DNA of 64,000 bases. Origin: Jutongia hominis (GTDB lineage: Bacteria; Bacillota; Clostridia; Lachnospirales; Lachnospiraceae). Shown here one piece after another: positions 1 through 22,135 of the stretch; within the stretch, counting starts at the first letter, position 1, and each line of letters opens with the position of its first letter. The stretch lies in NCBI RefSeq assembly GCF_014384965.1, contig NZ_JACRSW010000031.1, positions 124,001 through 188,000 of the forward strand. Direction: 5' to 3'. The notes beneath the pieces are model-generated. The model worked only from the letters and a program-made list of their open reading frames with translations, did not search any database and had not been told where the DNA came from. The translations under genes and the position numbers were made by a program.

Positions 1-42
1 ACTGCTTGATTTTCCTGCTGCCAGAATAATCGCATTTTTCAT
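1..42 (-). CDS. N-terminus of a nucleotidyltransferase (cut by window edge)
   Basis: Only the first 14 codons are in the window. They read MKNAIILAAGKSSS, the usual opening of NTP_transferase-fold sugar or phospho-base nucleotidyltransferases (ILAAGxxxR). The ATG at 42 is preceded by GGAGAGG about 13 bases upstream, a loose but credible ribosome site. It lies 68 bases after the APS-kinase fusion gene and is the next gene of the same train. Whether it activates a sugar, choline phosphate or a phosphoramidate cannot be told from 14 residues. Confidence 0.7.
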   Translation of the reverse strand, partial: MKNAIILAAGKSSS

Positions 43-110
43 ATCAACACAATCTCCTCTCCATGATTTTTCTATCTCATCTTTTGCTCAAAACCTGTTG
101 CGTTCTGCTT

Positions 111-2405
111 TTATAAGCCAAACTTTTCTACGATCTGCATCACGATTTTCTCCGGTAAATCTTTGCCATCATTATGAATCACCATAGACGGATTCTTTGG
201 CTCTTCAAATGGAATATCCATTCCCATTACATTGCTGATCTCTTTTTTCAGCACTTTGGAATACAGATGTTTTTGATCTCTGCGGATCAGCTCTTCCATT
301 GGTACATTCAAATAGATTTCATGATACTTTGAAATATTTTCATGGTTCCATGCCCTGCATTCATCGTACATGGCGATCACACAGATAACAACGTCGATAC
401 CCTGATCAGAAAGCATTTTGCATAACCGTCCATGCTGTTTTGCAAGTTTTAACCGACCCTGTGTACTATAATCTGTCGTCTGGTATACTTCACGCATGAT
501 ATCTCCATCTAAGAAAACAACGTTCTTTTCTTTCTTTTTCAAATGCTGATACAAAAGTTTACCGATCGTAGTCTTTCCGGCACCGGACAGTCCTGTCACC
601 CAGAATACATGACCTTTCTGTGAGCTTTGGGCTTCTAATGTTTCATATAATCTACGTGTGTTTTTAAATTCCGGCAGATTTTTAATATCAAGGAAATAGT
701 CGCCTGCCAATTCTCTTAACTGAGCAATTCTTTCCTGATAGAGCGGATTGTCAATTTGATCATCCTGCTCTGTATCCAGTTTCCAGTACATCTCCTTACC
801 ATTTGCAAGTCTTGCATACTTGTCTGTCTCTGTTACGATACAACGATAAGCAAGTCCATATATTTGATTCTTCTCTGCGACTATTTTGTTCACTCTAGAC
901 AAATTGTAAATATCTACATCCTCTATTAATGCATAATCCGACAATGCTTTATCTAATAGTGTTTCATCTCCATTTAATATATATTGTAATATTAAATAGA
1001 AATTTTTATAGGATATCATTTTATGTACTTTTTCTTTTTTCACCTTTTCTCCTTCAATTATGCAAAATGTATGCATTTTATCTTCCAGAAAATTCCATTC
1101 ATCTCTTTGGAAATTAATTCCATGATCCGCCATATATATCTTTATTATCGGTTCAGGAAATAGTGTACTGTAAAATTTTAGTTGATCATTCATGTATTTA
1201 TAATTTTCTATGATTTGTCCTGTTGTTAATGATTTTTTAAATTGATAAGAATAATCCACATCCATGCCAAAGGAAATAAACGGTCTATGTGTTTCACAAA
1301 TTGAGTGCATGATAACAAATTGTGGTTTTTGGACTTGTAACAAAAATTTCAAGGTATCCCAATAAATACTACATGCAGCAATAGAAAAACGATCATCTTT
1401 ATATAAATTCTCTTCTTTACCAATTCGGATATATACCGGATCAATATGTTTTTCTCCTACATATCCCATGTATGCAAATTCATATCCGGCCTCTGCAATT
1501 TCTTGTAAAACGATACTATTTTCTTTTTTTATTTCTTTTTTTGTCAATGAATAATCATCAATCCGATCTGTTCTTTGCATAATCGCATGCATTGTCGGGT
1601 GTGTATTCGGACAGCTTGAATATACCCTCTCAAAAAATAAACTCTTGTCTTTTTTCTCATACATAAAAGGAAGTTTTTCCAGATTCTTATATGGCACTGC
1701 ATCAATCCAAAACATTATAATATGTTGTAAAGACGAATGTTTCATTTCCTGTCGTACCTGCTCCAAAAGTTCTTTTAATTTCTCTTCTATTTCGGAATAC
1801 AATGCGATTCTGGAAAACTTTCTTTTTTTATACTCTTCTATCCATAAAAAAGCAGAATGAAAATCTTTTAAAACGAGAAGACTGTCTATTAACATTTCCA
1901 ACATTTCTTCTGTTCGCTCTTTTTGATAACAATGCTTATAATATAAAGACGTTTCGTAAAATTTATTGCGATAATAATAAAACGGTGCCTCTAAATGATA
2001 TCCTGCTTTTTCAAGCTCCTCATAAATATCCCAAATTAAAACAGATTCGGATTCATAATCCTCACGCATTGCATGACGATACGAATAGGAAGAAAGAATG
2101 ACCATATCATATTTAATCTGCTTTTGCTTTTTTTTTGCAAGAATCGCTATGCCGTTTAATTGTTCCCCTTGTAAATTATCATCTATAACAGCAACAATTG
2201 GTGATTCCTCCGGTGCTGATAACTTCTGAAGCCTATTTAATATATGCTCTGTGTGAATTCCTCCACCTCGTATAATTACTTTTCTCCCGTTCATAAGAAC
2301 AAGTAGCCTCAGAAAACAATCCGTCACATAATCTTCTATCCCTCTTGATTTACCATAATCTCCTAATTTTTCTATTATCTTGTTAAATTTGTCCTCTAAT
2401 TTCAT
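111..2405 (-). CDS. Rossmann-like / alkaline-phosphatase-fold / APS-kinase (CysC-like) fusion protein
   Basis: The protein has 764 residues from the ATG at 2405, which has GGGAG seven bases upstream. An in-frame ATG at 2474 would overlap the previous gene and lacks such a site. Order: a Rossmann-like segment around residues 40-150 (KVIIRGGG, then AVIDDN), a helical stretch, and an alkaline-phosphatase/sulfatase-like segment (IIMFWIDAVPY near 240, YMADHG near 450). The last ~170 residues are an APS-kinase domain: P-loop GLSGAGKTT, LDGDIMR, RRDQKHLY and MDIPFEEPKNP. True APS kinase phosphorylates adenylylsulfate, but no sulfate-assimilation gene is nearby. Campylobacter uses a CysC-like kinase (Cj1415) on CDP-phosphoramidate in capsule synthesis, a parallel that fits this cytidylyltransferase-rich setting. 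The substrate is inferred, not shown. The first two modules match those of the gene at 8610-10406. Confidence 0.8.
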   Translation of the reverse strand: MKLEDKFNKIIEKLGDYGKSRGIEDYVTDCFLRLLVLMNGRKVIIRGGGIHTEHILNRLQKLSAPEESPIVAVIDDNLQGEQLNGIAILAKKKQKQIKYDMVILSSYSYRHAMREDYESESVLIWDIYEELEKAGYHLEAPFYYYRNKFYETSLYYKHCYQKERTEEMLEMLIDSLLVLKDFHSAFLWIEEYKKRKFSRIALYSEIEEKLKELLEQVRQEMKHSSLQHIIMFWIDAVPYKNLEKLPFMYEKKDKSLFFERVYSSCPNTHPTMHAIMQRTDRIDDYSLTKKEIKKENSIVLQEIAEAGYEFAYMGYVGEKHIDPVYIRIGKEENLYKDDRFSIAACSIYWDTLKFLLQVQKPQFVIMHSICETHRPFISFGMDVDYSYQFKKSLTTGQIIENYKYMNDQLKFYSTLFPEPIIKIYMADHGINFQRDEWNFLEDKMHTFCIIEGEKVKKEKVHKMISYKNFYLILQYILNGDETLLDKALSDYALIEDVDIYNLSRVNKIVAEKNQIYGLAYRCIVTETDKYARLANGKEMYWKLDTEQDDQIDNPLYQERIAQLRELAGDYFLDIKNLPEFKNTRRLYETLEAQSSQKGHVFWVTGLSGAGKTTIGKLLYQHLKKKEKNVVFLDGDIMREVYQTTDYSTQGRLKLAKQHGRLCKMLSDQGIDVVICVIAMYDECRAWNHENISKYHEIYLNVPMEELIRRDQKHLYSKVLKKEISNVMGMDIPFEEPKNPSMVIHNDGKDLPEKIVMQIVEKFGL

Positions 2406-2448
2406 AGTCAACTCCCATTTTATCTTTTTTCTAATCCTTTCGCACCTT

Positions 2449-4875
2449 TTATATACTGTAATTTTTCTTTTCATTTTCCTTCAAAAAAGGCAAAATTTCT
2501 TTTTGTGGAAAGGTATAATAAATTTCTTTGTTCGGCAATTTCTTTTTTAATTCCATTACTTTTCCTATATCTAAATCTTCTACAGCGAGCATTTTTATAA
2601 TCTCAGCTACCAAATCTAACGCATCATCATTCCAGTTATATCGTGCAATTTCCTGTGTACCTAAGCGAATGCCAAAACCATGAAAAAGATTCTTAGTTTT
2701 CTTATTCAAAGTAACTTCACAGCGATAAGCATTATCATAAATCCGATTCATTGTATCCTGATCGCATTCTATAAAAATTTGATGTGTATATGAAATCTGG
2801 TCTCCTGTTTTTACAATATGATATCCTTTTTCTTCTAGTTTTTTTCCAAGATAATTTGAACAATGCACCATATGAGTCATATATTCAACACCATATTTCT
2901 CAAATTCAACCAGAGCAAATAAAAGAGAAATTTTCTGATGCATTTGTGAATGTCTTAAATATTTAGGATTTATCGTCATCTCCATCTTATCGTGCAAAGA
3001 TTTTTCATTTGTCATAATCAAACCTGATGCAGGACCTGGAAATGTCTTATGCGTTCCCGCAAACATAATAATATTTTTCATATGTTCTAATGGATTTTTA
3101 CATAAGCCCGCTGCAATCAACCCTAATAACTGACTACAGTCCCACATTAATACGCAAGACGACGTATCTATCTTCTCTACATCCAATGGTCTTATTACAT
3201 CTGATGGTGCTAACAGAATATATTTAATATTCTCTTTTTTTATCATTGCATTGACTTCATCATATTTTAAATCTAATGTTTCCATTGAAAACGGTGCTTC
3301 ATATGTTTTTAATCCCAAACGTTCAACTACCGGCTTCACAGAGGCATGACCACCATATTCTTTTCCTAAAAGCATAATCTTATCACCATGTTCACATACT
3401 GTTTTTACAATCATATCAATACAATTCATTCCGGTAAATGGTCTTGGATCTGTGTAAACTGCCCCAAACATTCTTCTGCACACTTCAGAAATTTTTTGAT
3501 AAAAAGGTAAAAGTTTTTCACATCCTATAAAGTTATCTGACATATTGAAGGAATATGTATTGTTCATAATATAACGCTCTTGAAATCCACATGATAATGG
3601 AATATTTGTAAATTCTGATGTAGGATTTTCTGCTGCACAGAGTGGTAATGTGCGTTGATGATACTCTTTAAATTCATTTGTTGCCTGATATAAATATTTC
3701 AAATCTCCCTCAACATTATACTCTCTTTTTCCATTAACTTTTATATTTTTATCTAACTTATACAGAGTTATCGTACTTCTTATTACATCACGACACAAAT
3801 AATACACTCTACCCTGATAATTAATTTTATCATTGTTATTTTCTTGTATATCACAAATATATGTTTCTTCTTTACATTCAAATTTAAACATAGAAAATTT
3901 GATTTTCTTTAATGATTCAATATGAATAATCTGATCTTCCGTAACACCTAATACATAACATATTTTTTGCATGATCTTAGAATTTGATTTTTTCTGATAA
4001 TTATAGTCAAATTTCCTTAGTTCTTCCAATGAATCAAATTCATGAATAACATCCGCACCACAATATTTTGCATACATATATAATTCTTCTAAATGTTCAT
4101 CTTGTATATCAGCCCAAAATTTCCCTGCAGTATCTGGCAAGTCATAAATTTCATCTAATATTTTTACAAAGTTTTCTGAAAATCTTTTATTAAAATACGC
4201 ATATCCTAATGTAACCCAGATATCATAACACTTATCTCCATACATAGTTTTTAAAATCTTATCATCCTCGTCTGTAACGATACCTCGTTCAGCTGTTTTT
4301 CCTGACATATAAACAGAAGAATAATAAGCATCATACGCATATGTCTGAAAGATATTTTCTGAAAAATATAGATCAGAAGAAGTAATGATTGTATTTTTCA
4401 AATATCTTTTGGCGGCATAAACACTTGAGTGATTATTTTTCTTTTCATACTCTTTAGATTCCACTAAGATAACTCCATATTTATCTACTAAATATTGGAA
4501 TTTTTCTTTCATATATCCTACGACAATGACTACCTCCTGAATTCCTTTTTCCCTAAGCTGGCATATTTGTCTTTCTACTAATACTTCACCCTTTACCTTT
4601 AGAAGACCTTTCGGCTGCTCATAGCTAAGTGGTACAAATCGAGTTGACATCCCGGCTGCAAGAATAATGGCATTATCTATTTTATGTTCTTCTAGCATTT
4701 TTTTACCTGATGGCAAAATTTCTTTACCACTAATATACCCATTTTCCTCTAGATTTTTTCTTGCACTTTCAATCAAATTATTATCTTTAAATAATTTACT
4801 TGCCAATTCTTCATTACTGAATTCTTCATTTTCATCCAATAAACGAATTATTTCAAATTGCAATTTATTTATCAT
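2449..4875 (-). CDS. Winged helix / LicC-like cytidylyltransferase / SHMT-like PLP enzyme fusion
   Basis: An 808-residue three-part protein. Residues 1-65 look like a small winged helix. About 66-300 are a nucleotidyltransferase domain (AIILAAGMSTRF, PKGLLKVKGE, SSDLYFSENIF) resembling LicC/PntC, which make CDP-choline or CDP-aminoethylphosphonate. About 405-790 are an SHMT-type PLP domain: LPLCAAENPTSEF, WDCSQLLGLIAAGL (Asp 579 matching the ring-nitrogen aspartate of SHMT) and AGTHKTFPGP (Lys 610 as the PLP lysine). The SHMT histidine in DMAH is replaced (DCSQ). PntC-aminotransferase fusions are known in phosphonate synthesis; I do not know one with an SHMT-like domain. It probably makes and CDP-activates an amino-phosphate or aminophosphonate head group for the LicD-like transferase encoded 15 bases upstream. 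GGAG lies eight bases before the ATG. The exact substrate is unknown. Confidence 0.8.
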   Translation of the reverse strand: MINKLQFEIIRLLDENEEFSNEELASKLFKDNNLIESARKNLEENGYISGKEILPSGKKMLEEHKIDNAIILAAGMSTRFVPLSYEQPKGLLKVKGEVLVERQICQLREKGIQEVVIVVGYMKEKFQYLVDKYGVILVESKEYEKKNNHSSVYAAKRYLKNTIITSSDLYFSENIFQTYAYDAYYSSVYMSGKTAERGIVTDEDDKILKTMYGDKCYDIWVTLGYAYFNKRFSENFVKILDEIYDLPDTAGKFWADIQDEHLEELYMYAKYCGADVIHEFDSLEELRKFDYNYQKKSNSKIMQKICYVLGVTEDQIIHIESLKKIKFSMFKFECKEETYICDIQENNNDKINYQGRVYYLCRDVIRSTITLYKLDKNIKVNGKREYNVEGDLKYLYQATNEFKEYHQRTLPLCAAENPTSEFTNIPLSCGFQERYIMNNTYSFNMSDNFIGCEKLLPFYQKISEVCRRMFGAVYTDPRPFTGMNCIDMIVKTVCEHGDKIMLLGKEYGGHASVKPVVERLGLKTYEAPFSMETLDLKYDEVNAMIKKENIKYILLAPSDVIRPLDVEKIDTSSCVLMWDCSQLLGLIAAGLCKNPLEHMKNIIMFAGTHKTFPGPASGLIMTNEKSLHDKMEMTINPKYLRHSQMHQKISLLFALVEFEKYGVEYMTHMVHCSNYLGKKLEEKGYHIVKTGDQISYTHQIFIECDQDTMNRIYDNAYRCEVTLNKKTKNLFHGFGIRLGTQEIARYNWNDDALDLVAEIIKMLAVEDLDIGKVMELKKKLPNKEIYYTFPQKEILPFLKENEKKNYSI

Positions 4876-4890
4876 AACAATTTCTCCATT

Positions 4891-6054
4891 CTATCCTAGC
4901 TGATAAACCCTCATTTTCTTGCTTTCTCGTTTTTCTTCCAGTGGCAAAATCATATAATCTCCATAATCTGCTTTTAAAATCTTATCATACCCATCCGGTA
5001 TCCAAAATTCTTCTGTTTCAAATTTTGTAAGATGTCGATTGATATAATCTTCTTTTAACATCACTCTGGATCTTCCATGATTAAAACCAAATGTTCCACA
5101 ATATATACAAGAAACCCATCTGCTATCAGCTAAATCATATTTCAATATAGTCTCTTTTATTTTTTTTACTAATTGTTCATAGTCTTTTTTGCAAAACAAG
5201 CTTGTTCCATATGGAATAACCACTTTTTCTTTCCATTCATTTCCGATTTTTTCCATATTATCAGAGAATACCTTTTGATCAGAAATGTCATTTGGAAAAC
5301 CGCCTAATGACCAAATATCTATTCCAATTCCCATTTTTTGTCGCAGCGGAAAATTTCTTTCTTCTCGTTTATACTTTTTCGATAGCAGTTTTGAAATCGT
5401 GCTGGTAAAATATTCTTTATTATTAAAAATGCTCAAAAATTCATACTCTTCTTCTTCGCTTAGCAATTCACAGCATTTAAAATAATCTTTTGCAGGCATT
5501 ATAACATCTACATCATCATCCCATGGAATAAAACCCTGATGTCTGATAGCCCCAATTAAACTGCCACTATATAGTGTATAATGAAGGTGATTTTTTTCAC
5601 AAAAATAATGAAACCATTTCAATATCTTCATCATTTCTTCCTGTGCCTTCGCAATTTCTATCATCCCTTTACTTTCTGACCAATCCAGACAATCTTCGGA
5701 AGCTTTATAATTATAAACATCAATCTCAATTATTTCCGTATTATCACTACCAGATGTCATTTCTTCCAATTTTTTTGCTTTTCCTTTTTCACATAAAACA
5801 ACACTCTTATCCTTCTGTGATTGACAAAATTGCTCAACCGATAAAACCTTTACATTTTGAAATTTTTTTCCAATCTTTTCTGGTCTGTTATCAATCATTC
5901 CTTTTACCGTCATATCCATTTTATGAAAATAACTTATAAAAAGTTTTGCCGGTGAACTATATTCAAAAATATAAATGTTTTTCTTATCTCTCTTTCCATC
6001 CAGTTCGTTTTTCAAATTTTTAATCGCATACTCAGCACATGATTTATATTCCAT
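4891..6054 (-). CDS. LicD-family phospho-base transferase with N-terminal Rossmann-like module
   Basis: 387 residues. The C-terminal two thirds is a LicD domain: LYSGSLIGAIRHQGFIPWDD followed by DVDVIMP near residues 170-195, carrying the acidic metal-binding residues. LicD proteins move phosphocholine or a similar group from a CDP carrier onto a glycan. Residues ~20-130 form the same Rossmann-like module (IYIFEYSS, MIDNRPEKIGKKF) found at the front of the proteins encoded at 111-2405 and 8610-10406. It ends 15 bases before the LicC-like fusion gene, so donor synthesis and transfer are probably coupled. No clear Shine-Dalgarno precedes the ATG at 6054, yet later starts would cut into the Rossmann module. 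Confidence 0.85.
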   Translation of the reverse strand: MEYKSCAEYAIKNLKNELDGKRDKKNIYIFEYSSPAKLFISYFHKMDMTVKGMIDNRPEKIGKKFQNVKVLSVEQFCQSQKDKSVVLCEKGKAKKLEEMTSGSDNTEIIEIDVYNYKASEDCLDWSESKGMIEIAKAQEEMMKILKWFHYFCEKNHLHYTLYSGSLIGAIRHQGFIPWDDDVDVIMPAKDYFKCCELLSEEEEYEFLSIFNNKEYFTSTISKLLSKKYKREERNFPLRQKMGIGIDIWSLGGFPNDISDQKVFSDNMEKIGNEWKEKVVIPYGTSLFCKKDYEQLVKKIKETILKYDLADSRWVSCIYCGTFGFNHGRSRVMLKEDYINRHLTKFETEEFWIPDGYDKILKADYGDYMILPLEEKRESKKMRVYQLG

Positions 6055-6102: not shown

Positions 6103-7170
6103 TTATTGCTGATCGTCATCCTCCAAAAAATTCTCCACAAAGAATTCCATCGCATTCTTAGATCCCGTTGATACACGGATATACTCTGAAAGCATTGGAT
6201 TTCCAAATGTTTTGATCAAAATCTTTCTTTCTTCTTTTAACTCTTTTTCCAGTTCTTTCGGTGCTTTTTTCGTCTTAATAAAGATATAGTTTCCAAGTCC
6301 GTCCTTCGTTTCATATCCTTTTTCTTTCAGGATATCTAATGTATAGTTCTTGCCTTCTTTTTGTTTGCAAATCATCTGATCAACCAGATCTTTCTGCTCT
6401 AATATCCTCTCACCAAACTTTAATGCGATCGCATTGACATCGAAAGTCAGATGTGATTTTCTCACATACTCAATGATATTCGGATTACTGATGATAACAC
6501 CCAGACGACACGCTGCCATAGAAAACAACTTTGAAAAAGTTCGTAAGATCACCACATTATCGTATTGATCGATCAATGGCAGGAATGTCTTATCATAAAA
6601 ATAATGATATGCTTCATCAATGATCACGATCGCATTCTTTTCCTGTGCTTTTTGAATCACTCTTTCGGTTTCCTGTGTAGAATATGCAAAACCGATCGGA
6701 TTATTTGGATTTAGTAAAACGACGATATCGGTATCATCATCGATCGCATCGACAATATTGTCAACATTGACTGTCAGATCTTTTTCATAAGCAACCGGAA
6801 CATGCTGTAACCCCAGAATCGCACAATTCACACGATACATTTCAAAGGATGGGCTGACTGTCACTACTTTTTTACCTGTCTGTGCAAAGACTTCATACAA
6901 ATAGCGGATCGCCATATCCGATCCATTCGTAGCGATCACATTTTCAAAACCTACACCGATAAAATCAGAAAATTTCTTCAAAAAACGATCCGGTTCAGGA
7001 TAAATTGCCAGAAATTCCGGTGTGATCTCTTTTAAAACCTGATCGACAAAAGACTTCGGAAGTCCTTCCGGGTTTTCATTCATATCAAAGCGGTAATATC
7101 CATATCTTCCCTGCTCCGGGAATATTCTTTCACATTCTTTTACATATGGATTGACATAATAATTAGTCAT
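6103..7170 (-). CDS. HisC-like class I/II PLP aminotransferase or phospho-amino-acid decarboxylase
   Basis: 355 residues, fold type I aminotransferase of the histidinol-phosphate aminotransferase group: RFDMNENPEG near the start, NPNNPIG, IIDEAYHYF and RTFSKLFSMAACRLG, whose lysine should bind PLP. The ATG at 7170 sits nine bases after AAAGGAG; two earlier ATGs are too close to or upstream of that site. No other histidine gene is near, so a role in histidine synthesis is unlikely. Relatives in surface-glycan clusters act on phosphorylated three-carbon compounds or decarboxylate phosphoserine, which would suit the CDP-polyol genes on both sides. That role is inference. Confidence 0.8.
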   Translation of the reverse strand: MTNYYVNPYVKECERIFPEQGRYGYYRFDMNENPEGLPKSFVDQVLKEITPEFLAIYPEPDRFLKKFSDFIGVGFENVIATNGSDMAIRYLYEVFAQTGKKVVTVSPSFEMYRVNCAILGLQHVPVAYEKDLTVNVDNIVDAIDDDTDIVVLLNPNNPIGFAYSTQETERVIQKAQEKNAIVIIDEAYHYFYDKTFLPLIDQYDNVVILRTFSKLFSMAACRLGVIISNPNIIEYVRKSHLTFDVNAIALKFGERILEQKDLVDQMICKQKEGKNYTLDILKEKGYETKDGLGNYIFIKTKKAPKELEKELKEERKILIKTFGNPMLSEYIRVSTGSKNAMEFFVENFLEDDDQQ

Positions 7171-7270
7171 ATGATTCATCTCCTTTGTTTTTATCATTTT
7201 ACAAATACAACAGGAAAACTTCTTAATATGACACCATAAGTTTTCTTCCTGCCTGACAATGATCTGCTCC

Positions 7271-8575: not shown

Positions 8576-8609
8576 AAAATCACCTCTTTTGACCAGTTTA
8601 GCCACTGTT

Positions 8610-10406: not shown

Positions 10407-10492
10407 TGTCTTTTCCTCCCATTTTCCTATATATACTCTCGGAAATCCGTCCGGTAGGATTCGTTTTAAGAATACTGTCGAGAGTACATTTA

Positions 10493-14025: not shown

Positions 14026-14547
14026 TTATGCCTTTTCTATCTCCATTTTTGTCTGCTTGTCATATTCTTCTTTATAACTTCCCAGCCCACGATAATTTTC
14101 TTCATCTTTAAATGCAGCATCTGTCTGCTCACTATACGGTACATCCGGCTTGTTTGTTAATTCTTCAAAAATAATCTGTGCAATTCGCATTCCTGCTGAT
14201 AATTCTATTGTATTGTTGGAAATATTCTGAATTCGTAAAAATGCAAATGTCACATGACCCGGCTGATAATGTGGTCCATCTACTTTTAATCCCTGACGCA
14301 TTCTGGAATTTTTCTCAGCAATCCTGCCTAAGATATTCAAAGGAATTGCCAGTTTTTCTTTTGTTTTCACAAACACGGTTTCACCCGGTCTCAAATCATA
14401 ATGTATATTCTCTTTTTCATCAATACCGCAAATCACTCCTATTGTCAGATCATATGATATACCATTCAAATTTTCTTCCTGATAACCGGCTTGAATCAAT
14501 TGACCTTCCTGAATATAACTTTTTATATCCTTATCTACCAATATCAT
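14026..14547 (-). CDS. dCTP deaminase/dUTPase-family protein, probably diverged
   Basis: 173 residues from the ATG at 14547 (GGAG eight bases upstream; MILVDKDIKSYI matches the Dcd start). An ATG at 14622 would add an unrelated leader. Family marks are NGISYDLTIG, EKNSRMRQGL and GMRIAQIIF. In the position of the catalytic glutamate of dCTP deaminase (LEFYN-type segment) this protein reads FLRIQN, placing arginine where glutamate is expected. It sits between neuA and neuB, an odd place for a housekeeping pyrimidine enzyme. It may bind a cytidine nucleotide without deaminating it, or may act as a plain dCTP deaminase if my alignment is off. It has its own likely promoter at 14721-14749. Confidence 0.75.
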   Translation of the reverse strand: MILVDKDIKSYIQEGQLIQAGYQEENLNGISYDLTIGVICGIDEKENIHYDLRPGETVFVKTKEKLAIPLNILGRIAEKNSRMRQGLKVDGPHYQPGHVTFAFLRIQNISNNTIELSAGMRIAQIIFEELTNKPDVPYSEQTDAAFKDEENYRGLGSYKEEYDKQTKMEIEKA

Positions 14548-14851
14548 AAAATACACTCCTTTTAAAGCATCCGATAAAGCTATTTTACCGAATACTTTTT
14601 CCATAAAACACTCCAAAGGCATTATGTTAATTACGCATCATTATAGCCAATACCTTAGTTCATTCATGTAGATAAATGAACATTTTTACTTATAATTCCC
14701 TTTTATATTTCTACTTTTTCAGTATAGCACGCTTATTTTCATACAACAAGCGTTACTTACATATCTTTAACCTATATTCTATTACTATTTCCAACCAATG
14801 CTTTTATTTTTAGATAATTTATTTTCTTCTGAACAGAATCACTATGACACT
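14548..14851. other. AT-rich intergenic region between neuA and the dCTP-deaminase-like gene
   Basis: This 304-base stretch carries the promoter at 14721-14749 and a small hairpin GTTCATT...AATGAAC at 14659-14682 inside the likely leader. No ORF with a ribosome site and no RNA gene is seen. Confidence 0.6.
14721..14749 (-). promoter_or_regulatory. Sigma-A-type promoter before the dCTP-deaminase-like gene
   Basis: On the minus strand: TTGTTG, 17 bases, then TATACT preceded by TGC, an extended -10. The predicted leader is about 165 bases. It would let the genes from 14547 leftwards be transcribed separately from the maf operon. Confidence 0.6.
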
Positions 14852-15553
14852 TTATTCTTCCTGCAAAAGATACTCCTTCGCACGAAGGAACTCTTCTTCG
14901 GTATCAATATCAAAGTTGTCTTCCATCTTATAACCTGCAATCGTATCTCCCGTCATTGAATGCTTTTTTGTAACAACTTCACTTCGAAAGACATCAATAC
15001 ACGCATTTTGATAATACACATTCGGAAGCTGCTGCCGTGGCATGTTGTAGCATTCCGGTATGTCTGTCATTAATGGAGAAAGCATTCCGGTATCTTCATC
15101 CATATGCCACATCTTATAGGGGATTTCTTTTGCCGGTGCTACGCATCGCATACTGTCTACATCCGGGTGTACCTCCATATATCGAATCATATTTTCAATA
15201 TCCTGTATCCGACGGATCGGATATGTCGGGCGAAGCTGTACAACAAGATCAGGTATATATCCTTCTTTTTCTTCTAAAAAGCTAAGAGCATGCATAAATA
15301 CATCCAGATCAAGAGATGTATCTGTCGCATACTCTGCCGGTCTGATAAACGGTACTTCTGCTCCATATTCTCTCGCAATTGATGCATATTTTTCACTATC
15401 TGTACTTACGATCACTCGATCGATCAAGGATGTTTGCAATGCATGCTCAATAGAATACGCCAACATCGGCTTACCATTGATCAGTCTGATATTTTTATCA
15501 ACAACACTTTTTGAGCCACTTCTGGCCGGTATTACAGCAAGTACTTCACTCAT
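14852..15553 (-). CDS. neuA: CMP-nonulosonate cytidylyltransferase
   Basis: 233 residues, the normal length for CMP-sialic, CMP-legionaminic or CMP-pseudaminic acid synthetases. Motifs: VIPARSGSKSVVDKNIRLI (nucleotide-binding start), MLAYSIEHAL, VSTDSEKYA, QLRPTYPIR and DNFDIDTEEEF with the metal-binding aspartates near 213-217. It activates the product of NeuB with CTP for glycosyltransferases. AAAGGAG lies about eight bases before the ATG. The CMP-sugar is the natural donor for the Maf proteins encoded upstream, some of which transfer nonulosonic acids to flagellin. Confidence 0.93.
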   Translation of the reverse strand: MSEVLAVIPARSGSKSVVDKNIRLINGKPMLAYSIEHALQTSLIDRVIVSTDSEKYASIAREYGAEVPFIRPAEYATDTSLDLDVFMHALSFLEEKEGYIPDLVVQLRPTYPIRRIQDIENMIRYMEVHPDVDSMRCVAPAKEIPYKMWHMDEDTGMLSPLMTDIPECYNMPRQQLPNVYYQNACIDVFRSEVVTKKHSMTGDTIAGYKMEDNFDIDTEEEFLRAKEYLLQEE

Positions 15554-15698: not shown

Positions 15699-16844
15699 TC
15701 AACATACAAAATGTGTATTATGAACAGCTTTCTCCCGGTAATGCTTTCCATAACGAAATACATTTTCAATTGCTTTTTCTTTCTCTACACAGGCAAGCTC
15801 AATAATTTTTTCTACACAGATAGAAGAAATTTTTTTCTCTTCCAAATACGCTATTGCTTCTTTACAATCTTCATCTGACAAACTGTATTCAAGTCTTCTC
15901 ACACAAAACTTCAACTTCATAAAATGTTCTTTAATCGTTGTACTATTAACCGGCTCTATGCAAGCAAAAAGATCACTTTCTCCTGCTGCTTTCTCACGAT
16001 CCTGTATTTGAAAAAGCAGATATAATACAACAAAAAGCTCACTGCTTTGCATCTTTTTGATATGCTGGTATACCATTTCTTTTGCAAAATCCAGGTTTCC
16101 CTGATCTAGCTGTGCGATAATCAGATTTTCAATTCTTTGAACAGCAGCATTTTCTGTTTGCTGCTCTTTGCTTTCTACAAGCGTAGAATGATATTCCTTG
16201 CAAAAAAGTGCTCTATATTTCTCATAATTCTGAAAATTCAGGAAACCGCAATCATGAAGCACCCATGGCACTTCCTGATACGGAACGACCACATGATACC
16301 CTTTTATACGAAATTCATAGGATTGCGATGCATCGTAAAAATCCCATCCGTCAAAAAGATCTTCTCTCCATGGCACATCATACTGTGTCATCATCAAAAG
16401 ACCATCCACGGCTTCAACTTGTGTATAAACCGCTTCTTTGTCATGTTCATGATCAAAGAAATCGTCTACTGTATTCAAATGGCAGCTCCGCAAGGCACCG
16501 ATGCGGTCATTGGTTTCCCACATTACTGCACTTTGCGGCATTTTAAGCGTTCCGACCATTCCGATTATCCCAATTTCAGGATGCTTTAAAAAAAGTGCGA
16601 TCGTGTCTTTTAAAAATCCGCGATATAAAACAAAAACGTCCTGATGCAAATAGACTTTATACTTCGCATCGCTTGCCTGCATCGCAGCATTATAGCCGGC
16701 TGTCATGGATTCTGCCTGTGCGATCGTCAAAAGATCCAGTTCAAATCCATCCGGGATTTCAAGACGATTCAAATAACGGATGCATTCCGATAAATACAGT
16801 TCATTATTATAGCAAATAATAAAGCAGATTTTTTGTTCATTCAT
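15699..16844 (-). CDS. GT2-like glycosyltransferase family protein
   Basis: 381 residues from the ATG at 16844, six bases after GGAGAG and 24 bases past the preceding gene. The N-terminal ~220 residues have the shape of the 'Glycosyltransferase like family' (GT-A type): ICFIICYNNELYLSECIRYL, ESMTAGYNAAMQ, YKVYLHQDVFV (DxD equivalent), GIIGMVGT and WREDLFDGWDFYDASQS. The last ~150 residues are helical with no recognised domain. It probably adds a sugar in assembly of the glycan made by this cluster. An in-frame ATG at 16874 lies inside the upstream gene and lacks a ribosome site. Confidence 0.8.
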   Translation of the reverse strand: MNEQKICFIICYNNELYLSECIRYLNRLEIPDGFELDLLTIAQAESMTAGYNAAMQASDAKYKVYLHQDVFVLYRGFLKDTIALFLKHPEIGIIGMVGTLKMPQSAVMWETNDRIGALRSCHLNTVDDFFDHEHDKEAVYTQVEAVDGLLMMTQYDVPWREDLFDGWDFYDASQSYEFRIKGYHVVVPYQEVPWVLHDCGFLNFQNYEKYRALFCKEYHSTLVESKEQQTENAAVQRIENLIIAQLDQGNLDFAKEMVYQHIKKMQSSELFVVLYLLFQIQDREKAAGESDLFACIEPVNSTTIKEHFMKLKFCVRRLEYSLSDEDCKEAIAYLEEKKISSICVEKIIELACVEKEKAIENVFRYGKHYREKAVHNTHFVC

Positions 16845-16867
16845 ATCTTCTCTCCATGTGCTTTTCG

Positions 16868-18439
16868 CTACCAATATTTTTCTCTGACTCTTTGCTCTAT
16901 CGCATCATTTAGATCCCTGATTGCAGACTCAGAAGAAGTCATAAGCTTTGCCCTGTCTTTTGCTTTTGCAGACATTTCCCGATAAAATGCATCATCCTTA
17001 CGATACCGTTCTATCTGCTCTTTCATTTCACTAAGATCATTGACTGCAAAATCCGGTCCACCGGATACAAAAACGTCCCCTGTCTTTGTATACACACCCG
17101 GAACTCCTTTGGCAAATGCTTCGATCACCGAGAATCCTCCCCCTAAACGGATCGGATTGATATAAAGATCACAAATTTCCATCAATGCTTCCATATCTTC
17201 ACAATAGCCTATAAAGTTCGTATTTTGTTCTAAAACCGGATCATTTTGACACCAATCCGAATACGTTTCAAATTTTCCTGCCAGAACTACAAAAAAACCT
17301 TCTTTTTCCAGCGTGATCAAAAGTTTTGTAAAATCATCACTAAGCTCATAGTCCAGACGAATCCCTACGATAACCAATACAAAGGCATCTTCCGGTATCC
17401 GGTATTCTTTTCTTGTAAACGTATGTGTCTGTTCTTTTAATTCAAAAGTAAAACGGCTTTCGATCACATCCATATTGGCAAATGTCTCTTTTTCTTCTTC
17501 CCGTATCATTCTTCCTAATATCTTCATCGGGTTCATTGTATGTGGCAGATTAGAAAAAGCCAATGCCATAGATGCAGTCGGAATAGCCTGACCACATAGA
17601 TCAGCGGTCATACTTCCGGTTCCCATCGATAAAATGTAGAATGGTTTTACCTGCCTGATCAGTCGGAGCACCGTGCGCAGTTTCCGTTCAATCGTCATCT
17701 TTTCTGATATTTGTAAAAAATCAAATTCATCTTCTCCAAAACGTATCACATGTGCGTTGCGATAGCTTTCCTCTACACTTCCAACAGCCGGATCATAGAT
17801 GGGAATTTCTCCTGCTGCCAGATATTGTTCGGTTGTATTGACAATAAATACTTTTTTCCCTAATTTCTTTAACCATTTCACACGTTCGATCAACGTTTTC
17901 GTTGGAGCATGATTCATACCGAGAAGCTGAATCGTAAGAACAACAATACAAGCAGGATCTCTTTGTTCTTTCGGAATTTTCTCCAACTGTGATTTTGTTT
18001 TTTCAAAATAAATACCATAGCTTTTCCGATAGATCCGCTCAAGAAGGTTATAACTTTCCCGGTCTGTTTGCACCATCTTTTTCAAAGAAAGCCGTTTAAA
18101 CTGATTCCAGATATAATACAGTTCATCAGCATTAAAATCGCCCAGAAGTATTTCTTTTAATAAACTATTTGTATCTTCTGTTTTTTTCTCTAATCGCATT
18201 AAAAGAGACAGTATAAAGCAAAAAAACTCTTTTGTCATCTTTTCTTCCTGTCTTTGATAACCTGTATTTTTCCTGTCAGCACATGGCTCTAATACCTCTT
18301 TACAAGCCTCGATCAACAAATCTTTTTGTTCTATTGCCGCCTGACTCAAATAATCATAGATCATATTATCTAACTCTTTGAATGCATTTTTATCCTGACA
18401 TTCTTTGTATGACCTTAAAATTTCCGTCAATGAATTCAA
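16868..18439 (-). CDS. GT4-type glycosyltransferase, translationally coupled to maf
   Basis: 523 residues starting at a TTG at 18439. That codon overlaps the stop of the previous gene as TTGA, five bases after GGAGGAG, a clear coupling junction; the in-frame ATG at 18505 lies inside the upstream gene. The C-terminal half is a GT-B fold donor domain: LVIVGIRLDYEL, VVLAGKFETY, NFIGYCEDMEALMEICDLYI, GGGFSVIEAFAKGVPGVYT. The N-terminal ~200 residues are helical, followed by an acceptor-like domain around 170-330. Retaining GT4 enzymes of this form add sugars from NDP donors. It shares an operon with two Maf proteins, so it may extend the flagellin-linked glycan. Confidence 0.82.
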   Translation of the reverse strand: MNSLTEILRSYKECQDKNAFKELDNMIYDYLSQAAIEQKDLLIEACKEVLEPCADRKNTGYQRQEEKMTKEFFCFILSLLMRLEKKTEDTNSLLKEILLGDFNADELYYIWNQFKRLSLKKMVQTDRESYNLLERIYRKSYGIYFEKTKSQLEKIPKEQRDPACIVVLTIQLLGMNHAPTKTLIERVKWLKKLGKKVFIVNTTEQYLAAGEIPIYDPAVGSVEESYRNAHVIRFGEDEFDFLQISEKMTIERKLRTVLRLIRQVKPFYILSMGTGSMTADLCGQAIPTASMALAFSNLPHTMNPMKILGRMIREEEKETFANMDVIESRFTFELKEQTHTFTRKEYRIPEDAFVLVIVGIRLDYELSDDFTKLLITLEKEGFFVVLAGKFETYSDWCQNDPVLEQNTNFIGYCEDMEALMEICDLYINPIRLGGGFSVIEAFAKGVPGVYTKTGDVFVSGGPDFAVNDLSEMKEQIERYRKDDAFYREMSAKAKDRAKLMTSSESAIRDLNDAIEQRVREKYW

Positions 18440-19758
18440 AAAATCTCCTCCAGTGTTTGTTCTTTCATACCATGTATTCTTGCTCCGTTCGAAGCGTTGA
18501 TCCATTCAATCTCCGTCTCAGATTCAATACGTCTTTCGATCCAGCGTCGGTAAATATCCAGCGTTTTACCGGTTCGTACCTGTCTGCCGCCAACACCTTC
18601 TACCAAACGTAAATTCTGTGTATCGACAAGCTTCTTTCCAACTCCTCCGGCATGCGTTTGCTCACCCGGATATCCCATATCCAGACCAACGACTATGATC
18701 CTTTTGCAATGCATACGAATTCCAAGATCGATTGCAAAGGTAGCTACCGATCCACCGGATTCATATAGTGTATATCCCATTTTGTGTGCTGTCTCTTCTG
18801 CTTCCGGCATTCCCTCCTGATAAGCAATATAACGCTTGCTTTCATATTCATTTGCCACAATTGCCGCTACTGTCGATAGGTAGATCAACGGGATTCCTGA
18901 ATTTTCAATTCCACGGATACGGCAGCGAGTGCCTGCTTTTGCATCCGTCATTACAAGATAATCCGGACGGATCTTTTCTGCCAATACTTTTTGGGCAACT
19001 TTTCCGACACAAAGCATAACAATATCTTCTCTGCCGCTTAACTCTCGAAGCTTCTCCCAGTGTTCTTCTAACGACGGTCCACCGGCTAATAATATCATCG
19101 TTTTATCGCAGAATGTATCAGAAAGCACATCTACACATTCGTCCTGTAACGTCTGGTTTTTATGAAAATTTTCAACCAAAAGCTCACCCTGCTTTTCCAT
19201 CGAAGCAAAGATCACTTTATAATTTTCTAAAATTTCACGAAGAGAACGATCCGGTGTGGTCTTGATCGCCGGTTCCCACATACAATAGCGTATGTCTTCT
19301 TTTTCTCCGTCAAGCCATGGAATATAATCTTTGGGATTTTTGCAATATACGATCGTCACTTTTGTATCTTCTAAAAGTTCTTTCAGGTTACGATAACGCA
19401 TACAGATTGCAAGCACTTCGAGATCACTTTCCAAAACGACGATCTTTTTAGATGTCATTTTTGCTAATGCTTCTACATGATAGCCAAGAGCCATGCCAAA
19501 CACGACATATTCCTCGCAGGATTCATTACGATTCGCTTTTGCAAAAAGTTCAGCCTCCCGTCTGGGATTTCTTGCAGAGCAAAGACGAATCTTTTTTTGC
19601 TCTTCTTCTAATGAAAGAACGACATCTCCATCCCTTGTCCGATCCAGATAAAATATTCTGTCGGATTCATCCTGAAATGTGTTTAACACACGATACAACT
19701 TAGAATCTTTCTTTTTTAAGATAGAAAGATTACTTTGCCAAAAATCATTTTCTTCCAA
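18436..19758 (-). CDS. Maf/DUF115-type flagellin glycosylation protein, short form
   Basis: 440 residues from a TTG at 19758 with AGGAG eight bases upstream. It shows the MAF_flag10/DUF115 core: EEYVVFGMALGYHVEALAK, a long insert, MILLAGGPSLEEHWEKL, DYLVMTDAKAG, YESGGSVATFAIDLG, IIVVGLDMGYPGEQTHAGG. Maf proteins are thought to transfer nonulosonic acids to flagellin serine/threonine residues in the cytoplasm before export. It is a paralogue of the next gene upstream but shorter by ~170 residues, mostly at the C-terminus. With neuA and neuB downstream, a nonulosonate donor is likely. Confidence 0.85.
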   Translation of the reverse strand: MEENDFWQSNLSILKKKDSKLYRVLNTFQDESDRIFYLDRTRDGDVVLSLEEEQKKIRLCSARNPRREAELFAKANRNESCEEYVVFGMALGYHVEALAKMTSKKIVVLESDLEVLAICMRYRNLKELLEDTKVTIVYCKNPKDYIPWLDGEKEDIRYCMWEPAIKTTPDRSLREILENYKVIFASMEKQGELLVENFHKNQTLQDECVDVLSDTFCDKTMILLAGGPSLEEHWEKLRELSGREDIVMLCVGKVAQKVLAEKIRPDYLVMTDAKAGTRCRIRGIENSGIPLIYLSTVAAIVANEYESKRYIAYQEGMPEAEETAHKMGYTLYESGGSVATFAIDLGIRMHCKRIIVVGLDMGYPGEQTHAGGVGKKLVDTQNLRLVEGVGGRQVRTGKTLDIYRRWIERRIESETEIEWINASNGARIHGMKEQTLEEIF

Positions 19759-19892
19759 TACAATTACTCCTGTACTTTTTTGCTCTCCATTAAAGTCAGA
19801 TCAATACACTTTCAGAAAACTTCAGATGATCTGACTCTATACTTTTCATGAAAAACATATATTTTACTCTAAATTTTAATGATAATCTCTTA

Positions 19893-21722
19893 TCACAATT
19901 TTGCTAACGATTCTTTCAACAATGGTGTCAATTCATCAATAGCTTCTATCATAGCTGTATAAACCGCTCCTGAGATAGCGAGCGTCTGTAACATGTTCTG
20001 ATCTGCGTCTTCAGAAAGCATATTGATCTGCTGTACTTTTTCCGTAGTCATACCTGTAATATAGGTATCCAATAAGTTATATGCACTTTGTTTTGCTATT
20101 ACATTATTGACTTTACGAATTGTTTTCAGACATTTTTCTTCTTTTTGAGCAGATGTATTATGCTTACGGATCAGTTTCATCAGATCTTCCTGTGCTTTTT
20201 TCCCTTCCGTTGCTTTCCCTCGTAAAAGAACAAATTCCTTTTCTAGATGCAGCATTTTCTCTTTGACTTTTGTATACTCTTCTGCGGAAAAAGTAGGTCC
20301 TGTCTCTTCTAAAACAGCCGCAAAATCAAATTCTTTTTTACATTCCTTTTTAATGACATCGGCTAAAGTCCGCACCTTAGATCCTTCGATCAAAGCACCG
20401 CCTTCTGTTGCATCAATTACTTCAATCTCGGGAAGTGCACGGATCGCATCTTCAAACCAGTCTTTATAGATCAGCCAGTCATAACGAGAACGTACTTTAC
20501 CGCCATTCACGCCATCCACCATCTTCATGCCATAAGATTCATTGACAATGTGCTTTTCTACACCTCCGGCATGTGTCACATCTCCATCATAAGCAAGATC
20601 CTGACCGATCAGAACGATCTTTTTAAATCCTAAAGCAGCACAAGTACTGAATGCACCTGTCGCAACCGACCCGCCACTGCTATATGGTGGAAACTCTCTG
20701 CCAAACTCACTATACAAAGCTTCTGTATATGGTTCACTGCGAAACCAGATTTTTCTCGATCTGTTCTTCTCTAAGAAAAGATTTTTTGCTTCCACATTGC
20801 TAAAGATCGGCACCTGTTCACATCGCTCGTCAGTCAGATGACGCGGGCTTTTCTTCGCATCCAAAGTTACGATCGCATCAAATGGTGCATCATGCATCAA
20901 TAAATATTTTACTGCTGTATCTGTTGCAAGAATAAACGCTTTTCCTTTTGCATTTTTCAATTGATCAATGTTCTTATCCAAAGATGGTCCGGCAGCAACA
21001 ACAATTGCCGGCACTCCGTCCGGGATTTTATCTATCAGATCCGGAATATAGTTACTATCCTTGATAAAATGAAGATTTTTCATCACATTGCTAATAGCCG
21101 AATGCGCCAGATGTGCTTCGGTATCCCGATTAACCTTTGCCATTTTATTCACATTTTCTACAGCTGCTAAAAAATCCTTATACTGCTCTATATATAGCTT
21201 ATCATAATTAGGATGAAAGCTTAAGATCTGTGAGGGAAGATTGGTCCAATGCACGCTTCTTTCCAATGCACCCGCAAATCCGTCGAGATTGATCTGATCT
21301 ACATAAATCTGTACTCTCTCATCTTTTAAGACATCTTCCATATCAAAATGATCTAGGCAAAAACAGAATAATGCAAAATCCGGTTCACAAACAAAAACTT
21401 TTGCATCTGCATCCAGTCTTTTTAGTAATTCTCCTAAAAAGATACCATTGCCCAATCCATATAAAATGGTAATAATATTCATATTTTGAAAAGTAAACTG
21501 ATCTGCCCATTTCTTAGCTTCCTGTGCCGGACGATATGTACTGTTCATTCGATTTACTTTTCCGTCTTTTTTTATACAAAGTGCCCAGTTTCCGTCTCTT
21601 GTTTCGGTTTTTTCGAACGAATCAAACGAAGGCTGCTGTTCTTTTTCTCTTTCTATTAGTTTTTCATATAATTTTGGTCTTACTTCCTGCAAGACCGAAC
21701 GATTTTTCTCAGCGTTATCCAT
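19893..21722 (-). CDS. Maf/DUF115-type flagellin glycosyltransferase
   Basis: 609 residues, usual size for full Maf proteins. N-terminal region with ITILYGLGNGIFLGELLKRL, then the core: VVAAGPSLDKNIDQLKN, AIVTLDAKKSPRHL, PPYSSGGSVATGAFSTCAAL, IVLIGQDLAYDGDVTHAGG, and a ~200-residue helical C-terminus. GGAG is seven bases before the ATG. Two Maf paralogues in tandem may use different sugars or different flagellin sites. It sits 2.4 kb downstream of the flagellin gene on the same strand. Confidence 0.88.
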   Translation of the reverse strand: MDNAEKNRSVLQEVRPKLYEKLIEREKEQQPSFDSFEKTETRDGNWALCIKKDGKVNRMNSTYRPAQEAKKWADQFTFQNMNIITILYGLGNGIFLGELLKRLDADAKVFVCEPDFALFCFCLDHFDMEDVLKDERVQIYVDQINLDGFAGALERSVHWTNLPSQILSFHPNYDKLYIEQYKDFLAAVENVNKMAKVNRDTEAHLAHSAISNVMKNLHFIKDSNYIPDLIDKIPDGVPAIVVAAGPSLDKNIDQLKNAKGKAFILATDTAVKYLLMHDAPFDAIVTLDAKKSPRHLTDERCEQVPIFSNVEAKNLFLEKNRSRKIWFRSEPYTEALYSEFGREFPPYSSGGSVATGAFSTCAALGFKKIVLIGQDLAYDGDVTHAGGVEKHIVNESYGMKMVDGVNGGKVRSRYDWLIYKDWFEDAIRALPEIEVIDATEGGALIEGSKVRTLADVIKKECKKEFDFAAVLEETGPTFSAEEYTKVKEKMLHLEKEFVLLRGKATEGKKAQEDLMKLIRKHNTSAQKEEKCLKTIRKVNNVIAKQSAYNLLDTYITGMTTEKVQQINMLSEDADQNMLQTLAISGAVYTAMIEAIDELTPLLKESLAKL

Positions 21723-21737
21723 ATCATTTCTCCAATG

Positions 21738-22052
21738 CTATTCCATATTACCAACAAGTTCTTCCATATATTCCAAATAGTCATATTGTAAGATATCTGC
21801 AAGCAATACCATATCTCCGTCTTGTAATGCATTCATTGCATCTTTTAAAATATTTGTAAGCTGTGCTTCATCCAAAACAAAATCATCATGTTCTGTCCGA
21901 TAAGTAAATAAGGCATCAATTGCTGTCATCATATTGCTAAGTCCTATTGTAAATTGATCCAATGCCTCTTTTTCTTTTTGCTGGTAAAAAAGATCAACTA
22001 TCCCTTTTACTTCTTCTATACTTTTCATTACAACATCTTTTGATCCACTCAT
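21738..22052 (-). CDS. Small helical protein leading the maf operon, function unknown
   Basis: 104 residues, acidic and predicted all helical, with no membrane segment or known motif. GGAGG lies nine bases before the ATG at 22052. It ends 15 bases before maf and follows a good promoter, so it is a real gene and first in the operon. Its size and helical nature recall flagellar chaperones such as FliT, or an accessory partner of Maf, but I see no signature to decide. Confidence 0.75.
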   Translation of the reverse strand: MSGSKDVVMKSIEEVKGIVDLFYQQKEKEALDQFTIGLSNMMTAIDALFTYRTEHDDFVLDEAQLTNILKDAMNALQDGDMVLLADILQYDYLEYMEELVGNME

Positions 22053-22106
22053 CTGCAGCTTCCTCCTCTATTTTTGTTCATATTTCTAACATCTTAGAAT
22101 ATCCTC

Positions 22107-22135
22107 ATAATACCATAATGATATCTATACTTCAA
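22107..22135 (-). promoter_or_regulatory. Sigma-A-type promoter of the maf/glycan gene train
   Basis: Minus strand: TTGAAG, 17 bases, TATTAT, with TG one base before the -10. It starts a ~50-base leader into the gene at 22052. It lies after the flagellin terminator, so the glycan genes appear independent of sigma-28. Confidence 0.65.

Follow-up and report, generated by a model that had tools for sequence, protein, structure and literature searches.

A gene island lies behind the flagellin gene of Jutongia hominis, in a stretch of 64,000 nucleotides (assembly GCF_014384965.1, contig NZ_JACRSW010000031.1, positions 124,001 to 188,000; called the window below). Seventeen genes run on the minus strand from fliC (22261–23175) to base 111, and the window starts at base 1. 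A Pfam and NCBIfam scan covered 20 window genes (111–26326). PF22674 is the name of an N-terminal domain only. The island probably consists of two transcription units, a flagellin-glycosylation unit (unit 1) and a cassette of eight genes (unit 2), which may together build a nonulosonate glycan on flagellin with glycerol and amino groups attached through phosphodiester links. The families named in an earlier note on this DNA were found where it had placed them, all on the minus strand behind fliC, but its gene list had overlooked a dCTP-deaminase/dUTPase-like gene (14026–14622) and the sulfatase-fold protein SULF2 (8610–10565).

Gene content of the island

Unit 1, in order from fliC:
22261–23175, minus strand: fliC, flagellin, the acceptor protein in the model (Pfam Flagellin_N/C)
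21738–22052, minus strand: orf104, small conserved protein between fliC and maf (no Pfam match)
19893–21722, minus strand: Maf1, flagellin glycosyltransferase family (PF01973, E 6e-31)
18436–19758, minus strand: Maf2 (PF01973, E 1e-28; PF20157)
16868–18505, minus strand: glycosyltransferase, group 1 (PF13692/PF00534)
15699–16874, minus strand: glycosyltransferase-like protein, family 2 type (PF13712, E 2e-89)
14852–15553, minus strand: NeuA-like CMP-nonulosonate synthetase (PF02348)
14026–14622, minus strand: dCTP deaminase/dUTPase-like protein (PF22769, PF00692; under the TIGR02274 cut-off)
12413–13906, minus strand: NeuB-like nonulosonate synthase with C-terminal cupin (PF03102, PF07883)

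Likely boundary of the two units:
12316–12339, minus strand: intrinsic-terminator-like hairpin with T-run

Unit 2, in order:
10905–12224, minus strand: TagF/TarF-like CDP-glycerol:glycan glycerophosphotransferase (PF04464, E 2e-57)
10493–10882, minus strand: TagD, CTP:glycerol-3-phosphate cytidylyltransferase (TIGR01518, 206.5 bits, cut-off 165.4)
8610–10565, minus strand: SULF2, sulfatase/alkaline-phosphatase-fold protein with Thr at the nucleophile position (no Pfam match; fold from predicted structure)
7271–8605, minus strand: TagD2-pseudo-oxidoreductase, divergent cytidylyltransferase with a degenerate Gfo/Idh/MocA domain
6103–7197, minus strand: HisC-like pyridoxal phosphate (PLP) aminotransferase (PF00155; TIGR01141 242.8 bits, under the cut-off of 276.55)
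4891–6054, minus strand: LicD-family phosphotransferase (PF04991, E 4e-36)
2449–4875, minus strand: winged helix, LicC and serine hydroxymethyltransferase (SHMT)-like PLP enzyme in one protein (LicC-SHMT), predicted CDP-amino-acid synthase
111–2474, minus strand: SULF1-APSK, sulfatase-fold domain and adenylyl-sulfate (APS)-kinase-like domain of subfamily NF004041, predicted non-APS kinase

FlgN, FliS and FliD are encoded upstream of fliC. Unit 1 carries PF01973 Maf proteins, NeuA and NeuB beside fliC, which is the gene set of Maf-type flagellin nonulosonate glycosylation. Counterparts of orf104 stand at the same place in two related islands described below, with 50% identity in Butyribacter intestini (L057) and 45% in bacterium D16-51 (L058). 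BLAST (E 1e-4) found no counterpart of the dCTP-deaminase/dUTPase-like gene, which lies between NeuA and NeuB, in L057 or L058.

The island had been described as a single gene train. However, the gap of 188 bases between NeuB and the glycerophosphotransferase contains a 10-pair stem (6 G-C) with a T-run at 12339–12316. Of the 13 terminator-like sites between 4400 and 23400 it is the longest, and their number is not above chance (9.7, sd 3.0, in shuffles of that region). The 71 bases around it, including a second hairpin, fold better than 200 of 200 shuffles (z −3.7). Across the eight unit 2 genes the intergenic gaps are −73 to +73 bases. Because the hairpin after NeuB parts the flagellin, Maf, glycosyltransferase, NeuA and NeuB genes from the cassette, the island is probably two transcription units rather than one. 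Promoter-like sites gave no signal (68 versus 66.7 in shuffles), and the two matches to a sigma-28-like pattern (0.71 expected) precede neither fliC nor the cassette.

LicC-SHMT as a predicted CDP-amino-acid synthase

LicC-SHMT has 1,038 database relatives at E ≤ 1e-20, and both domains are present in all 120 of the matches listed. Among 38 loci from species genomes, an SHMT-type match was found in 35 and a fusion in 29. In 26 of the 29 fused loci, as counted with hidden Markov models (HMMs) built partly from the same loci, LicD or a Glyphos_transf (PF04464, below Glyphos) transferase is at most two genes away on the same strand, and the three misses are at contig ends.

Pneumococcal LicC (1jyk, E 4e-35) is the closest match of the LicC half. 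In the alignment D107 is kept as D168, while D105 is replaced by S166 and W136, which we take to be part of the choline-binding aromatic box, by R197; all of them are invariant in 15 homologues. D105 of LicC lies near the substrate amine (PMC6697681; papers are cited here by PMC number, each for the part of its text that was available). The choline-binding pocket, as judged by W136 and D105, is not seen in LicC-SHMT, and an arginine in place of W136 would suit a carboxylate.

The SHMT half belongs to the fold family PF00464 (64.7 bits versus 27) and retains the PLP-lysine motif (THKTF) and the arginine of GIRLGT. It reaches neither the SHMT cut-off of NF000586 (151.7 bits versus 335) nor that of fluorothreonine transaldolase (133.6 bits). 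The glutamate of the YAEG motif is required for folate-dependent transfer by SHMT, and it is replaced by methionine in 15 of 15 LicC-SHMT proteins. SHMTs are known to act without folate on other beta-hydroxy amino acids (PMC5958214) and to form allo-threonine (PMC3697235). We read the SHMT half as a folate-independent aldolase or transaldolase that acts on a beta-hydroxy-alpha-amino acid and is linked with CDP activation. LicC-SHMT is predicted to be a CDP-amino-acid synthase, because the folate-linked glutamate is absent and an invariant arginine stands at the Trp136 position. In the searches made of open-licence PMC papers, no paper listed dealt with LicC-SHMT or with this gene set.

A decayed oxidoreductase half in TagD2 and the adjoining aminotransferase

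The TagD-oxidoreductase fusion named in the earlier note is present, but its oxidoreductase half is probably inactive, because the catalytic lysine is lost and the NAD-binding half is shortened. In the window protein EKP, whose lysine is presumably the catalytic one of Gfo/Idh/MocA oxidoreductases, has become ESP and HxTHY is lost, while GxG of the NAD loop is kept. The Rossmann half has 33 residues versus 47–51 in intact fusions. The TagD2 domain scores 121.5 bits against TIGR01518, under the cut-off that TagD itself passes.

An alignment of 47 fusions of this type (TagD-GFO) was made from the window protein, 8 proteins from LicC-SHMT loci and 38 from an order-wide search, leaving out G350 (split by stops, L139) and GFO-only matches. 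These are not all independent, since some are close relatives and clustering at 85% identity reduces the 47 to 40. An intact Gfo/Idh/MocA half, with GxGR and EKP, is present in 34 of the 47. Ten fusions (window, L015 and L101–L108) form one clade without EKP in a midpoint-rooted tree, with ESP in nine and ESL in one, and are at most 65% identical among themselves. The second glycine of GxG is lost in eight of the ten; the window protein and L015 keep it but have lost HxTHY. In L136–L138 (G579, G292, G628), genomes without a flagellin match, EKP was lost apparently independently.

Of the 10 degenerate-clade loci, 8 have a standalone aminotransferase on the same strand and no more than 2 kb away. 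It is HisC-like in the window, L015, L102 and L103, and PhnW-like (class V, under cut-off) in L101, L105, L106 and L108. In L107 its place is taken by an iron alcohol dehydrogenase and a thiamine pyrophosphate (TPP) enzyme, and in L104 no aminotransferase was found within 2 kb on the same strand. The first counts used two HMMs from families seen in the degenerate clade and were thus biased towards it. A Pfam check was made on 95 same-strand neighbours (250–720 aa, within 2 kb) of the other 37 loci, of which 25 families were shown, so that singletons may be hidden. Aminotran_1_2 was found in three proteins, presumably L125 (standalone) and L129 and L130 (LicC fusions). The enrichment in the degenerate clade has a Fisher P of 1.2e-6 against 1 of 37, or 2.0e-5 against 3 of 37. 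The simplest reading is that the intact fusion reduces a keto-phosphate and then activates the alcohol, and that the substrate activated by the degenerate one is an amine arising from transamination. Phosphoenolpyruvate (PEP) mutase was found in one of nine degenerate-clade genomes; therefore a 2-aminoethylphosphonate (AEP) pathway is not indicated in most of them.

Among the 95 neighbours of intact or independently decayed fusions, 19 are LicD proteins, 11 are Glyphos transferases and 4 are flagellins. A hint at the natural substrate comes from seven glycerophosphodiester phosphodiesterases and from six xylose-isomerase-like TIM barrels in this set. Proteins of 805–880 aa stand directly before intact TagD-GFO genes (L020:215-2785, L021:2-2419, L022:5164-7695, L023:5124-7715, L025:5133-7775); those of L020 and L022 were scanned, with a Pfam match in neither. 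A literature search on CDP-2-glycerol (pneumococcal Gtp1/2/3), which was considered for TagD-GFO, found nothing useful.

Sulfatase-fold proteins and the APS-kinase-like domain

SULF1 and SULF2 have the fold and the conserved nucleophile and metal-position residues of the LtaS/sulfatase (alkaline phosphatase) superfamily, with residue roles assigned by analogy. Their length alone hints at a possible relation to Cj1421 and Cj1422, the MeOPN transferases of Campylobacter. The kinase domain fused to SULF1 belongs to PF01583 (99 bits versus 21.1) but does not reach the cut-off of TIGR00455 (116.3 bits versus 138.7), and it has DGDIMREVY for DGDNxRxGL and IAMYDECR for ISP. It is 48–49% identical to kinases adjoining phosphoramidate-type and PEP-mutase genes, and 28–31% identical to kinases in CysNC-looking open reading frames (ORFs) of 613–631 aa. 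One relative is the D16-51 kinase located in a Cj1415–1418-like set. The domain is predicted from these motifs and relatives not to be an APS kinase.

SULF1-APSK has matches at E ≤ 1e-30 in 5 of 299 genomes of the family of B. intestini, full-length only in B. intestini; of the other four, one spans residues 60–613 and the rest cover part of the sulfatase or the kinase. SULF1 without the kinase has 10 database matches (E ≤ 1e-6, 426–764 aa), and SULF2 has matches in 2 of 397 genomes. In Clostridium porci (L061:3864-12212) a SULF1 relative stands in one row with two radical SAM proteins, a cytidylyltransferase-PEP mutase fusion, an APS-kinase-like protein, a TPP enzyme and another cytidylyltransferase.

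Related islands and the association with flagellin

Two related islands carry cassette genes behind a unit 1. In B. intestini (L057, L015) the order is FliD-FliS-FlgN-FliC-orf104-Maf-(Maf and NeuA in one frame)-Maf-NeuB-cupin, followed by a methyltransferase on the opposite strand and then Glyphos, aminotransferase, SULF2, TagD-GFO, a FemAB-like protein, LicD, LicC-SHMT, SULF1-APSK, a LicC-choline-kinase fusion and an IspD-like protein. In bacterium D16-51 (L058, L014) it is FliC-orf104-Maf-Maf-two GT2-NeuA-two unannotated ORFs-NeuB-cupin, then a second flagellin gene. Past this gene lie Glyphos, TagD, SULF2, a metallophosphoesterase, several others, a TPP enzyme, a cytidylyltransferase-PEP-mutase fusion, LicD, GT2 and LicC-SHMT. 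The NeuB junction is therefore followed by a cassette of variable content. A minimal form, fliC-glycosyltransferase-Glyphos-LicC-SHMT, is found in a Peptostreptococcaceae metagenome-assembled genome (L009). A search of the 197 genomes of its family for a C. difficile counterpart gave Glyphos matches in four, the L009 genome and three others, of which L146 has fliC-glycosyltransferase-Glyphos, L149 has Glyphos beside TagD-GFO and L147 has unannotated neighbours.

TagD-GFO was found in 39 of 392 genomes of the order of B. intestini. The proximity test used 38 of them (G350 left out, and one of two G337 fusions used), with distances from start to start and expectations derived from flagellin positions and genome sizes. 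TagD-GFO lies within 10 kb of flagellin in 8 of the 38 genomes versus 0.67 expected, and none of 200,000 simulations reached 8; within 15 kb the count is 11 of 38 versus 0.96. Flagellin itself was found in 31 of the 38, the background rate of the order not being measured. Chance co-location was rejected on the two related islands and the proximity test.

For Maf and PEP mutase, 29 genomes from the 38 LicC-SHMT loci were used (25 carrying the fusion, 3 in which the genes are split and 1 in which LicC is instead joined to an aminotransferase). L007, L011–L013, L030, L032, L034, L037 and L038 were left out as short or SHMT-less, and L036 was retained though without an SHMT match. Whether the phospho-genes occur mainly in genomes without Maf or flagella, which the earlier note had named as a test, has a mixed answer, with Maf over cut-off in 6 of these 29 genomes and flagellin in most TagD-GFO genomes. 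The phospho-genes therefore look like a general toolkit for surface glycans, which some lineages carry behind flagellin, rather than like a pathway dedicated to flagellin.

The D16-51 island has further genes of phosphorus chemistry. L060:693-5741 (G010), some 3 kb away from a flagellin-like gene of this island, encodes a kinase, a PPDK/PEP-utilising enzyme, a methyltransferase, a C26 amidase and a LicC-like protein. At the level of families these genes correspond to the O-methyl phosphoramidate set of Campylobacter. A cytidylyltransferase-PEP-mutase fusion and a TPP (Ppd-like) enzyme stand near LicD and LicC-SHMT (L014:5666-8090), which makes a phosphonate on flagellin possible in this strain.

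Proposed function and alternative explanations

We lean, with moderate confidence, towards a two-unit flagellin-glycosylation island that produces a flagellin nonulosonate glycan with phosphodiester-linked glycerol and amino substituents; we infer the substrates, the acceptor sugar and the action of the cassette on flagellin rather than on another polymer. Unit 1 would make a CMP-nonulosonate-type sugar, which Maf would attach to flagellin. Unit 2 would be a cassette for phospho-decoration, comprising three cytidylyltransferases and four candidate phosphotransferases. TagD would provide CDP-glycerol, from which the TagF-like enzyme would transfer glycerol phosphate. The HisC-like aminotransferase would make an amino-polyol phosphate, most plausibly serinol phosphate, which Cj1437 forms from dihydroxyacetone phosphate. 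This would be activated by TagD2, whose fused oxidoreductase, no longer needed, would have decayed. The SHMT-like enzyme would make or cleave a beta-hydroxy-alpha-amino acid without folate, the fused LicC would turn the phosphate ester of this amino acid into a CDP-amino acid, and LicD would transfer it. The substrate phosphorylated by the kinase fused to SULF1 may be that amino acid or else a CDP-donor at its 3'-OH, and SULF1 and SULF2 may transfer or trim phospho-groups. The earlier proposal of a phospho-substituted flagellin nonulosonate gains from the cassette following unit 1 in two further strains and from TagD-GFO being enriched near flagellin, but the sugar that is substituted is not fixed.

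A bolder form of this scheme is speculative and unlikely. In it the flagellin glycan would be built from new CDP-donors: a CDP-amino-polyol, with an aminotransferase replacing the fused reductase; a CDP-beta-hydroxy-amino acid from one PLP-enzyme-cytidylyltransferase; and a 3'-phosphorylated CDP-donor resembling 3'-phosphoadenylyl sulfate (PAPS), used by soluble sulfatase-fold phosphotransferases. The D16-51 island would further equip flagellin with phosphonate and phosphoramidate groups.

Several observations weigh against the two-unit flagellin island. The hairpin sets the cassette apart from the flagellin unit, and the junction holds a methyltransferase gene in L015 and a second flagellin gene in L058. 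NeuB is under the cut-offs of the named subfamilies NnaB (143.4 bits versus 399.65) and PseI (130.6 versus 340.25), and none of the early nonulosonate genes was found among the 17 island genes. Neither TagD-GFO nor the HisC-like gene was found in the D16-51 stretches examined. LicD or Glyphos lies within two genes on the same strand in only one of six unfused SHMT-type loci, the phosphorylated substrate of LicC-SHMT is given no source, and the APS-kinase-like domain passes NF004041 (203.3 bits versus 127), an NCBI subfamily named adenylyl-sulfate kinase. Most LicC-SHMT loci resemble capsule or wall-polysaccharide clusters with flippases, EpsG and glycosyltransferases, and Maf was seen in few of their genomes (6 of 29); therefore the cassette could serve a wall polymer. 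The main rival, possible though somewhat doubtful, is that the cassette decorates wall teichoic acid or capsule and that its position behind the flagellin unit is incidental. It would account for the hairpin between the units at 12339–12316, for the polysaccharide-like loci and the Maf count, and for the fact that none of the eight cassette genes is flagellin-specific. It does not account for the cassette genes that come after unit 1 in B. intestini and D16-51, for TagD-GFO close to flagellin (8 of 38 within 10 kb) or for the minimal L009 set, and neither flippase nor polymerase is present among the eight unit 2 genes.

Two other schemes appear improbable, with acceptors that overlap those above in the case of phosphonate tailoring. 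In that scheme (2-aminoethylphosphonate-type) LicC would serve as PntC, TagD2 as a Fom1-like cytidylyltransferase and the aminotransferase as an AEP transaminase. Fusion of a LicC-like PntC with a PLP enzyme has a precedent (PMC6697681). PhnW-like aminotransferases under cut-off adjoin the same TagD2 clade, and PEP mutase is over cut-off in 8 of the 29 genomes from LicC-SHMT loci and present in the D16-51 island. However, the match of TagD2 to TagD (1.4e-34) is much stronger than that to 5x3d (3.7e-4), which we take to be the Fom1 cytidylyltransferase, and PEP mutase was found neither among the 20 window genes scanned (111–26326) nor in B. intestini, 8 of 9 degenerate-clade genomes or 37 of 45 TagD-GFO genomes, whose completeness is unstated. 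These searches lower the probability of phosphonate chemistry in the window. A Lic-type decoration with phosphocholine or phosphoethanolamine and an accessory SHMT is likewise a poor candidate. The closeness of the LicC domain to pneumococcal LicC (1jyk, E 4e-35), the LicD gene next to LicC-SHMT and the LicC-choline-kinase fusion downstream in B. intestini would suit it, but all 15 LicC-SHMT proteins compared have Arg at the Trp136 position and Ser at that of D105, and LicA- and LicB-type matches are absent among the eight cassette genes.

If the flagellin island is as proposed, gut-bacterial relatives have a richer and swappable phospho-chemistry at the place where two pathogens are already known to carry phosphodiester-linked amino acids, and this could bear on flagellin recognition by host receptors, antibodies and phages. 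Three enzyme questions could then be tested directly, those of LicC-SHMT, of the sulfatase-kinase fusion and of the apparent switch from reductase to aminotransferase beside TagD2.

Comparison with known systems

Wall teichoic acid synthesis by TagD and TagF/TarF shares with the island a TagD over the curated cut-off and a PF04464 transferase. In contrast, these genes stand here behind Maf and nonulosonate genes, and TagA-, TagO- and TagGH-type matches are absent among the eight unit 2 genes. Compared with LtaS, PbgA and sulfatases, the sulfatase-fold proteins have an extra N-terminal domain, no membrane helices noticed by eye and, for SULF1, the kinase fusion. In Treponema denticola PntC-AEPT a LicC-like domain is fused to a PLP enzyme (PMC6697681). 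The island has such a fusion in common with the Lic/PntC pathways, with LicD adjoining, but the PLP partner is SHMT-like rather than an AEP transaminase, the choline pocket is altered, and PEP mutase occurs in 8 of 29 genomes.

The Campylobacter jejuni capsule carries O-methyl phosphoramidate (Cj1415–Cj1418) and serinol/ethanolamine (Cj1435–Cj1438) groups. Cj1415 is presumably the APS-kinase-like member of its set; the kinase is here fused to a sulfatase-fold domain, no Cj1416–1418-like set was seen among the window genes, and a Cj1438-like amide ligase was not identified. Cj1415–Cj1418 lead to CDP-phosphoramidate 3'-phosphate, and Cj1437 makes serinol phosphate from dihydroxyacetone phosphate (PMC11800397). 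For the HisC-like aminotransferase the Cj1437 parallel is an analogy, not a test.

There is a close likeness to flagellin modification in C. difficile type A (cd0240-cd0244) and P. aeruginosa b-type (pa1088-pa1091), where the gene set adjoins flagellin as it does here. In both species phosphodiester-linked amino acids are found on flagellin, and according to the published model the synthesis of a CDP-amino acid is followed by transfer of the phospho-amino acid to the flagellin sugar by a TagF-like enzyme (PMC10714395; PMC11833859); the proposal for the window is therefore chemically reasonable. A cytidylyltransferase and a TagF-like transferase stand next to flagellin in the window and likewise in L009, whose fliC-glycosyltransferase-Glyphos-LicC-SHMT set resembles that of type A. 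A CD0241-type phosphatase and a CD0243-type N-methyltransferase had no Pfam match in the 17 island genes, and because these partners were not found the island is not filed as a type A member. It has in addition Maf, NeuA and NeuB, three cytidylyltransferases, LicD, two sulfatase-fold proteins, and SHMT-like and APS-kinase-like domains. By analogy, the island would work like the C. difficile type A system, as a larger relative in logic.

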